A stretch of DNA of 53,068 nt, taken from NCBI GenBank assembly GCA_945903605.1, contig CAMDOH010000008.1, positions 1 to 53,068 of the forward strand. The letters run 5' to 3'. How positions within the stretch are numbered: position 1 is the stretch's first letter; the number at the start of each line of letters is the position of its first letter. Source of the stretch: Akkermansia muciniphila. Lineage in GTDB: Bacteria > Verrucomicrobiota > Verrucomicrobiia > Limisphaerales > UBA1100. The translations under genes were made by a program, and so were the position numbers. Under the pieces are notes generated by a model. The model searched no databases. It was not told the DNA's origin and worked only from the letters and a program-made list of their open reading frames with translations. Shown in pieces: positions 11,597 to 12,999 of the stretch.

Positions 11597-12874
11597 ATGA
11601 AGAATATGAATCAAACTTCTTGTGGTGCGTTTTCATTGTCGCGCCGTAATTTTCTGCAGTTGGTGCCGATGGTTGCAGCGGGATGTGTGGCCGCGCCTGC
11701 ACCGCGTGGCCCAAAGAAAATCGCTGCGATTGTATCCACCTATTATCAGAATTCGCACGCCGATGTGATTGTCAGTCGACTTTTGGAAACGCAAACATTG
11801 GACGGGAAAGGCGAACGGCTGGATTTAGTTCTCTCATCGTTGTACACGGATCAGGTTCCAAAAACTGACAAGAGCCGCACGCTTGCGACAACCCACGGCT
11901 TTAAGATTTACAAGACTGTCGAAGAGGCTTTGACGCTGGGGACGGGCCGACTGGCTGTCGACGGCGTGTTGTTGGTTGCCGAGCATGGGAATTATCCCAT
12001 CTCGGATACTGGGCAAGTGATTTATCCCAAGCGCAGGCTGTTTGAAGAAGTGCAGCGCGTCTTTCGCAAGACTGGTCGCGCTGTACCAGTGTTCATCGAC
12101 AAACATATCGCTGATAATTGGACTGACGCAAAATGGATTTATGATACCGCGAAAGAACTCGGTGCGCCGTTGATGGCGGGTTCTTCGCTGCCCACATTGT
12201 GGCGGCGTCCGATTGCAGACGTTCCGCGTGGCGCACGACTTGAAGAGATGCTTGCCGTTTCCTATCACACACTCGATGCCTACGGATTTCACGCGTTGGA
12301 AATGATGCAATGCCTCGCTGAGAGGCGAGTGGGTGGCGAGACAGGCATTCGACAAGTCCAGTGTTTAGAAAACGACGCAGTTTGGGCTGCAGGTGAGCAA
12401 GGTGTGTACAGCGATGAGCTGATGAAAGAGGCATTCACTCGTCTCGAACGGCCACCGAAAGGTGATTGGCGGGCACAAGTAAAGAATCCGGTTTTGTGGG
12501 TGATTGATTATGATGATGGTTTTCGTGCGCGCGTGCTGACGTTGAATAATGTCGTCGGCGAATGGGCGGTGGCGTGGCGCGAACGCGGTGTGACCAAGCC
12601 TGTTTCCACCTGTTTCTGGACACAGGAAGCGCGACCGTTCATGCATTTTGCGCACCTATTGGAGGGAGTGAACCAGATGTTTCAGACTGGCAAACCTGCC
12701 TGGCCAGCCGAGCGCACTCTCATGACCAGTGGCTTGCTTGATGCCTTGCTTCAATCCAAAAAACAAAGCGGGAAAATACTGGCAACGAACCATCTGCGAT
12801 TTGCTTATCGGACAGACTGGAATTGGCGCCAGCCTCCTGAGCCGCCCAAAGGCCGTCCCATGGATGGCCAGTGA
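11597..12874 (+). CDS. Tat-exported protein with Gfo/Idh/MocA-like organisation, function unknown
   Basis: This 425-residue protein has a twin-arginine signal (SRRNFLQLVPMVAAGCVAA); the Cys after AAG could make it a Tat-exported lipoprotein. After the signal, strand/helix order and several segments look like Gfo/Idh/MocA oxidoreductases: KKIAAIVSTYY as strand 1, DGVLLVAEHGNYP, then PVFIDKHIADNWTDAKWIYD, which aligns with the E/DKP loop, and GAPLMAGSSLPTLWR. The dinucleotide-binding GxGxxG expected near the N-terminus is not present, and the P of the D/EKP motif is H. It may therefore be a non-redox or differently acting homologue (inference). ATG at 11597 is used; an in-frame ATG at 11498 lies inside the upstream methyltransferase gene. 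Confidence 0.7.
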   Translation: MKNMNQTSCGAFSLSRRNFLQLVPMVAAGCVAAPAPRGPKKIAAIVSTYYQNSHADVIVSRLLETQTLDGKGERLDLVLSSLYTDQVPKTDKSRTLATTHGFKIYKTVEEALTLGTGRLAVDGVLLVAEHGNYPISDTGQVIYPKRRLFEEVQRVFRKTGRAVPVFIDKHIADNWTDAKWIYDTAKELGAPLMAGSSLPTLWRRPIADVPRGARLEEMLAVSYHTLDAYGFHALEMMQCLAERRVGGETGIRQVQCLENDAVWAAGEQGVYSDELMKEAFTRLERPPKGDWRAQVKNPVLWVIDYDDGFRARVLTLNNVVGEWAVAWRERGVTKPVSTCFWTQEARPFMHFAHLLEGVNQMFQTGKPAWPAERTLMTSGLLDALLQSKKQSGKILATNHLRFAYRTDWNWRQPPEPPKGRPMDGQ

Positions 12875-12922: not shown

Positions 12923-12999
12923 GCGCGTGTAGCTCAACTGGATAGAGCGTCGGTCTCCGAAGCCGAAGGTTGTGGGTTCGACCCCCGCCATGCGCACCA
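12923..12999 (+). tRNA. tRNA-Arg (anticodon CCG)
   Basis: A full cloverleaf can be drawn. The acceptor stem is GCGCGTG (12923-12929) with CATGCGC (12989-12995), pairing with one G-T wobble. The D arm is GCTC/GAGC, the anticodon stem TCGGT/GCCGA carries loop CTCCGAA, and the T arm GTGGG/CCCGC has loop TTCGACC. The anticodon CCG reads the arginine codon CGG. Discriminator A and an encoded CCA follow (12997-12999). It lies between the Tat-exported protein gene and transketolase, on the same strand. Confidence 0.96.

Follow-up and report, generated by a model that had tools for sequence, protein, structure and literature searches.

A predicted exported relative of the Gfo/Idh/MocA proteins without the dinucleotide glycine loop, and its family in Planctomycetota and Verrucomicrobiota

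The window analysed here is a stretch of 53,068 nucleotides, contig CAMDOH010000008.1 of the Akkermansia muciniphila assembly GCA_945903605.1. Positions 11597..12874 of its forward strand encode a protein of 425 amino acids, which is described, on the basis of the open reading frame, its relatives, an AlphaFold2 model and the fold matches of this model, as a predicted exported Gfo/Idh/MocA relative without the dinucleotide glycine loop. A methyltransferase gene (PF02636), which we take to be of the type named MidA, ends 5 bases upstream, and a tRNA-Arg gene at 12923..12999 followed by a transketolase gene is situated downstream. No sugar operon was seen beside the gene in the window. A pseudogene or a private decay of this one gene is ruled out by the open frame and by the conservation of the family across phyla.

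The N-terminal signal region (11597..11695, forward strand) contains the twin-arginine motif SRRNFL (residues 15-20, at 11639..11656). With the NCBIfam model TIGR01409, whose cut-off lies at 16.7 bits, the protein reaches 15.3 bits; the signal is Tat-like and falls just short of the threshold. The sequence-only reading had connected this signal to a folded cofactor protein. The motif is indeed present, but the cofactor argument is weakened, since our own twin-arginine pattern, run on the 75 residues preceding the domain of the family members, fits only one of the nine stand-alone proteins in the clade of the window protein, namely the window protein itself; the motif thus says little about a cofactor. 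Across the family the pattern was found in 28 of 54 members. The clade comprises 16 tips (support 0.953), seven of which are fused and have their N-termini outside the twin-arginine scan. L023 has RRQLP, which is not counted by the pattern, and the N-termini of the remaining stand-alone clade members are hydrophobic and without twin arginines. By eye, an export signal is apparently absent in L045:1474, in both copies of L046, in L047:1495 and in L060:1420, and export is presumably not universal across the family.

Cys30 of AAGC (residues 27-30; the cysteine codon at 11684..11686, forward strand) is a possible lipobox cysteine. The lipobox follows the pattern [LVI][ASTVI][GAS]C. AAGC carries Ala at -3, and VFGC in L001 and AGGC in L023 are loose fits as well. 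Lipid anchoring of the window protein via Cys30, as judged from these residues, is possible.

The Gfo/Idh/MocA-like two-domain region extends over about residues 41-405 (11717..12811, forward strand), as delimited by the AlphaFold2 model, of which the best VIA-align match covers model residues 4-371. The model of residues 35-425, built from an alignment of 20 sequences, reached a pLDDT of 90.5 and a pTM of 0.90 and consists of a Rossmann-type N-terminal domain and an alpha/beta substrate domain, i.e., the two-domain Gfo/Idh/MocA fold. Among 319 Foldseek matches at E<=0.001 the best 50 (E 9.3e-13 to 2.2e-10) are all of this fold, and so are the 50 matches listed by VIA-align (Z 24.7 to 21.6), with 3ec7, the myo-inositol dehydrogenase 4mie and GenD2 (6nor) as the best of those listed (Z 24.7-24.4 over 285-294 residues); the fold assignment of these matches was taken from their titles or, in part, from what we presume to be their classification. 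An unrelated fold does not occur among the matches listed by either program.

The HMM-HMM comparison with Gfo/Idh/MocA families that the sequence-only reading had suggested as a check agrees with this assignment. With hhalign, the family was aligned to five Gfo/Idh/MocA proteins of a type with a GLDTSH loop (see below) at 99% (E 8e-18, 268 columns) and to six classical Gfo/Idh/MocA proteins of the window's genome at 90% (E 1.6e-6), and the two short-chain dehydrogenases (SDR) used as controls gave 0.1% and 0.7%, although these are single sequences and thus a softer test than a profile. A search of PDB sequences with the family profile yielded four matches up to E 10, all four of them Gfo/Idh/MocA chains. 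These matches are weak (best E 0.095), and two proteins, RgNanOx and YjhC, account for all of them; the alignments listed place Lys169 on the EKP-type lysine of these chains. A single-sequence PDB search had returned HIV-protease matches to residues 195-269 (best E 2.6e-4), which are considered spurious, as they vanished with the family profile and conflict with the predicted fold. In Pfam, no family including PF01408 was matched by the window protein at E<=1, and a scan of 19 members at E<=10 yielded ten Pfam families, none of which is PF01408. Taken together, the predicted fold, the profile comparison and the aligned lysine support the proposed Gfo/Idh/MocA ancestry and a placement of the window protein as a divergent relative on this fold.

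As the sequence-only reading had stated, the N-terminal strand KKIAAIVSTYYQNSHA (residues 40-55) lacks GxGxxG, and this turned out to be a trait of the whole family: for the 53 of 54 domains that cover the loop, GxGxx[GAS] was found in none. The former GxGxxGxxHA loop now reads VSTYYQNSHA (residues 46-55; 11732..11761, forward strand). When aligned with a classical protein from the window's genome, this loop pairs with GTGSLGKEHA without a gap, so that the three glycines correspond to V46, T48 and Q51, and His54-Ala55 is ancestral; His54 is kept in 53 of 53 domains. The four commonest residues at the three former glycine positions (n=53) are T22/V17/A6/I4, E18/V13/I9/T5 and H12/Y12/P12/K5, respectively. 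As a yardstick, 12 loci of the 32 PF01408 matches in the window's genome were inspected, and 11 Gfo/Idh/MocA frames in 10 of these 12 loci show a G.G-type loop; L069 was not recovered and L075 has a variant loop.

Other parts of the fold are kept. At the end of strand 2, Asp85-Gln86 (11849..11854, forward strand; D in 48/53, Q in 52/53) lies, according to the alignment with classical proteins, near the position that we take to be that of the usual NAD-ribose acid, with an uncertain register. The loop after strand 4, TP-x-x-x-H in classical proteins, is replaced by EHG-x-Y (residues 129-133; 11981..11995, forward strand), of which E129, G131 and Y133 are found in 54/54 and H130 in 53/54 domains. 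EKP is replaced by Asp168-Lys169-His170 (12098..12106, forward strand) within FIDKHIA (166-172), with 54/54, 54/54 and 53/54, respectively. Hence the lysine is the sole residue retained of EKP, in a DKH context, and the retention of a catalytic-type lysine, which had been read from FIDKHIA, holds for all 54 family domains. The loop Ser196-Ser197-x-Pro199 (12182..12193, forward strand) is found in 54/54 at each of its three named residues, and DAYGFH (residues 227-232; 12275..12292, forward strand) ends on His232 (54/54), which occupies the position of the triad histidine when aligned with YGIH of the GLDTSH-type proteins. The mean frequency of the commonest residue is 0.60 for the beta1-alpha1 loop, 0.79 for EHG, 0.87 for DKH and 0.83 for SSxP, compared to 0.57 overall. 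Since the lysine, the triad histidine and the EHG and SS-x-P loops are near-invariant while the glycine positions vary, the dinucleotide loop has been dismantled in a conserved clade as a whole and not in a single decayed gene. A replacement cofactor motif elsewhere in the protein was not recognised, although conservation is seen in the loops EHG, DKH and SS-x-P.

The canonical Gfo/Idh/MocA oxidoreductases (PF01408; e.g., 4mie/3nt2 and the glucose-fructose oxidoreductase 1h6d) share with the window protein the two-domain fold, the lysine at the EKP position and the triad histidine, and some of them share export. They differ from the window family in GxGxxG, in EKP instead of DKH, in TP-x-x-x-H instead of EHG-x-Y, in the Pfam match and in the triad aspartate. 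In one studied enzyme the triad consists of Lys106, Asp191 and His195, with Asp four residues before His, as given in passages of PMC5969746. At the corresponding position -4 (A228) the family alignment shows no conservation, and residue 227 at -5 to His232 is D in 41/54 and E in 12/54, i.e., an acid in 53/54. Since searches for the glycine loop, for a match in Pfam and for the aspartate of the triad were all negative, we do not class the window protein, by its sequence, among the canonical Gfo/Idh/MocA oxidoreductases.

Weak matches in the window's phylum led to another group of proteins whose nucleotide loop is altered. In the sample of 387 genomes of this phylum, 13 have a match at E<=1e-5, of which three (the window's own genome, G110 and G349) contain true members; the matches of the other ten genomes are weak (E 2e-8 to 9e-6) and were not counted as members. 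A GLDTSH loop was read in six of these ten (L025, L026, L027, L029, L031, and L033), together with a DKPLA motif and YGIH or YGVH; L028, L032, and L034 were read from the DKP motif onward and L030 was left unread. The proteins of this group, termed GLDTSH-type here, belong to Verrucomicrobiota and are about 300 amino acids long (L025:1168-2067, L026:1192-2091, L027:213-1112, L029:1198-2097, and L033:150-1046). Like the family they lack a clean GxGxxG, and they share DKPLA/DKHLA, the SS loop and YGIH/YGFH with it. Unlike the window protein, they show no export signal, and their loop, in which one glycine is kept, aligns as shorter than that of the family. PF01408 was found in all four weak-match proteins scanned (E 5e-7 to 2e-10), and in three of them the match starts past the loop.

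These relatives bear on the question whether NAD(P) might still be bound, tightly and non-canonically, which would make the window protein an oxidoreductase or an NAD-dependent glycosidase like other exported Gfo/Idh/MocA proteins. The GLDTSH-type proteins pass PF01408 despite their altered loop, the K-H pair is kept, and the high conservation of Asp85 near the ribose position suggests that some nucleotide binding could survive. Zymomonas GFOR and Caulobacter AAOR bind NADP tightly. Both carry Tat signals, as described in parts of PMC4628093. This explanation has to accommodate that the residues in place of the three glycines vary and are often bulky or charged, that the strand-4 loop is rewritten to EHG-x-Y, that PF01408 does not match the window protein and that the twin-arginine pattern is rare among its stand-alone clade members, and we regard it as unlikely. 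An ordinary NAD(P)-dependent Gfo/Idh/MocA enzyme with a shifted motif was discarded as the leading reading due to the complete lack of GxGxx[GAS] and the variability of the glycine positions.

The conserved H54, E129, H130, D168, and H170 could alternatively coordinate a metal within the former cofactor cleft, which would make the protein a metal-dependent enzyme. Their near-invariance is in agreement with this idea, and the alignment with classical proteins puts these residues at loops that presumably border the cofactor cleft in the Gfo/Idh/MocA fold. However, H54 matches the ancestral histidine of GxGxxGxxH and is hence not a new ligand, and a relative from Arthrobacter has AERN instead of AEHG, so that a metal site is considered quite improbable.

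This Arthrobacter relative is encoded on a plasmid record of Arthrobacter sp. Hiyo8, where it is annotated as conserved hypothetical protein; it shares 30.5% identity with the window protein over 86% of the latter and keeps DKH and SS-x-P. The gene (L098:13416-15266, AP014720.1) is located near annotated phosphoenolpyruvate phosphomutase and phosphonopyruvate decarboxylase genes. In the contigs of GTDB genomes, 19 relatives with 35-61% identity to the window protein were found. By record title, most of them come from Planctomycetota and Verrucomicrobiota, while one MAG each is labelled Bacteroidales and Actinomycetota. A second family copy in the window's own genome (L021) is 41% identical. 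L010 comes from G392, a genome titled Planctomicrobium; of 294 genomes sampled from the phylum of G392, 21 have a family match and 17 of those more than one, and the 13 source genomes of the collected loci contain one to ten family matches each, a few of them being fragments. The count of 54 domains leaves out the partial duplicates L060:3577-4179 and L047:1-624, repeats of the same gene and six low-scoring rows of the GLDTSH kind. In a literature search that largely excluded subscription papers, no publication was recognised as describing this family.

In L004, L005, L008, L040, and L043 the family domain is fused to an N-terminal propeller-like region, part of which is also present in L009, where it is cut by the contig end. 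The model of the L005 region (pLDDT 81.0, pTM 0.86) resembles beta-propellers. Among the Foldseek matches listed for it, the top TM-score by target (0.78) is that of the streptogramin B lyase 2qc5, the lactonases RPA3624 and Drp35 occur, and the periplasmic domain of a heparin/heparan sulphate sensor ranks first by E-value; since Keap1 Kelch domains are the most numerous, the lyase/lactonase likeness of the modelled propeller may serve as a lead only. Among its relatives, the window protein is closest to L043, a fused protein (64% identity; joint support 0.963). The propeller of L043 represents a second type with 39-41% identity to the other fused propellers. Because of this second type on the nearest relative, propeller fusion seems to have arisen at least twice.

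A propeller of the first type is encoded separately in the window's genome (L087, G000:C54:6011-7201; L089:4991-6334, reverse strand) and has an NRRGFL motif; it is 55-59% identical to four fused propellers and 36% to that of L043. L087 adjoins a DUF1549/DUF1553-like gene and an FAD-oxidoreductase-like gene, both read by eye. In L095 (G124:C13:15768-16919), a related propeller occurs in one frame with a different C-terminal region. Propeller and family co-occur above expectation in both phylum samples, as determined by tests that ignore relatedness: in the phylum of G392 the family was found in 4 of 6 propeller genomes compared to 17 of 288 others (Fisher p 2.7e-4), or in 2 of 4 compared to 17 of 288 if fusion genomes are removed (p 0.022), and in the window's phylum in 1 of 2 compared to 2 of 385 (p 0.015). 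At E<=1e-20, ten of the 13 source genomes gave no match to such a propeller; two of these ten, G387 and G388, contain close relatives of the window protein.

Gal80p, a yeast repressor, has a non-enzymatic role. Its structures 3v2u and 3btu match the fold of the model closely (Z 21.9 and 21.6; 8-9% identity), so the same fold is shared with a eukaryotic transcription regulator, which the window protein is not. By analogy, the family might comprise non-catalytic ligand binders or sensors that perhaps present a sugar to another protein, for instance the beta-propeller. The propeller fusions, the sensor domain heading the match list of the L005 propeller and the loss of the triad Asp at -4 are in line with this possibility, but the invariance of Lys169, His232, and two serines in all 54 domains exceeds what a pure binder would need, and we consider such a role doubtful.

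Further fusions are rare. In L048 the family domain is fused to PF06439 (3keto-disac_hyd, E 2e-43), a single case among 54, and in L036:1-1572 (reverse strand) it shares an open frame with a preceding NAD-dependent epimerase domain. A fusion to a glycosidase of the GH type, suspected for L044, was rejected: its 897-residue frame is without a Pfam match at E<=0.01 and its N-terminal part is unlike the GH42-like neighbour of L001. Genes for a GH42 trimerisation domain and for DUF4838 are located upstream of L001 and L002, and an upstream glycosidase common to both loci was unsupported on comparison. Among 53 neighbouring ORFs scanned with Pfam, no family occurs more than four times, and there is no one conserved neighbour gene; DUF1501 and DgaE-type PLP enzymes, with four occurrences each, do not spell out a single pathway. 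The DgaE-type PLP ammonia lyase-like neighbour is found in one clade (L049, L053, L065, and L066, by our own reading). The window's genome (G000, 2.7 Mb) contains 32 PF01408 and 17 PF06439 match pieces and thus a heavy load of Gfo/Idh/MocA and 3-keto-sugar proteins.

The reading that we prefer, with a probability of roughly one half, is that of a carbohydrate-handling exported protein that acts independently of NAD(P) on the Gfo/Idh/MocA fold. In this reading, an unnamed clade centred on Planctomycetota and Verrucomicrobiota descends from this fold; its dinucleotide loop is dismantled, and the substrate pocket and a Lys/His acid-base pair remain under strong selection. A carbohydrate, perhaps a keto-sugar or an oxidised glycoside, would be bound and probably converted outside the cytoplasm in a non-redox, NAD(P)-free step for which Lys169 and His232 would be responsible (e.g., an enolisation, isomerisation or elimination), possibly beside a lyase/lactonase-type beta-propeller and 3-keto-glycoside hydrolases. 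A changed function and a different ligand, as already suggested by the sequence-only reading, are what we infer for the window protein. The L048 fusion to PF06439, the propeller fusions, the genes upstream of L001 and L002 and the PF01408 and PF06439 load of the genome are counted in favour of a sugar context; the heterogeneous neighbours, the setting of the window gene with no sugar operon seen beside it, the singularity of the PF06439 fusion, the retention of Asp85, the non-universal export and the several carriers without a propeller count against this reading.

One source of the keto-sugar idea is the 3-oxo-glycoside route: as outlined in parts of PMC11239390, NAD-dependent relatives first oxidise the substrate, and deprotonation, elimination and hydration steps follow. 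The other is the DUF1080 proteins, which parts of PMC9007349 tie to 3-keto-sugar hydrolysis and to whose family the 17 match pieces in the window's genome belong. NAD-dependent glycoside hydrolases and 3-oxo-glycoside enzymes (8qc5, 8qc8, and DgpA 7xre) are close fold matches of the window protein (Z 22.5-23.1). Glycoside chemistry is a feature of these enzymes and a proposal for the window family; unlike what is proposed here, they keep and use NAD+, according to their titles and the same parts of PMC11239390. It is tempting to speculate that the exported family, without NAD(P), employs the Lys/His pair for a cofactor-free, non-redox conversion of oxidised sugars, such as the elimination or isomerisation of 3-keto-glycosides, and that it works together with the lyase/lactonase-type propellers to which it was fused more than once; in this specific form, we deem the scenario improbable as a whole.

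Gfo/Idh/MocA proteins are generally regarded as NAD(P) enzymes. With its multiple copies, the present family, which has their fold and the catalytic lysine and lacks the dinucleotide loop, offers a natural opportunity to see what this fold is capable of without its cofactor, and fold-based annotation of such proteins as oxidoreductases could be wrong. The family would add an uncharacterised component to the extracytoplasmic sugar breakdown of Planctomycetota and Verrucomicrobiota.
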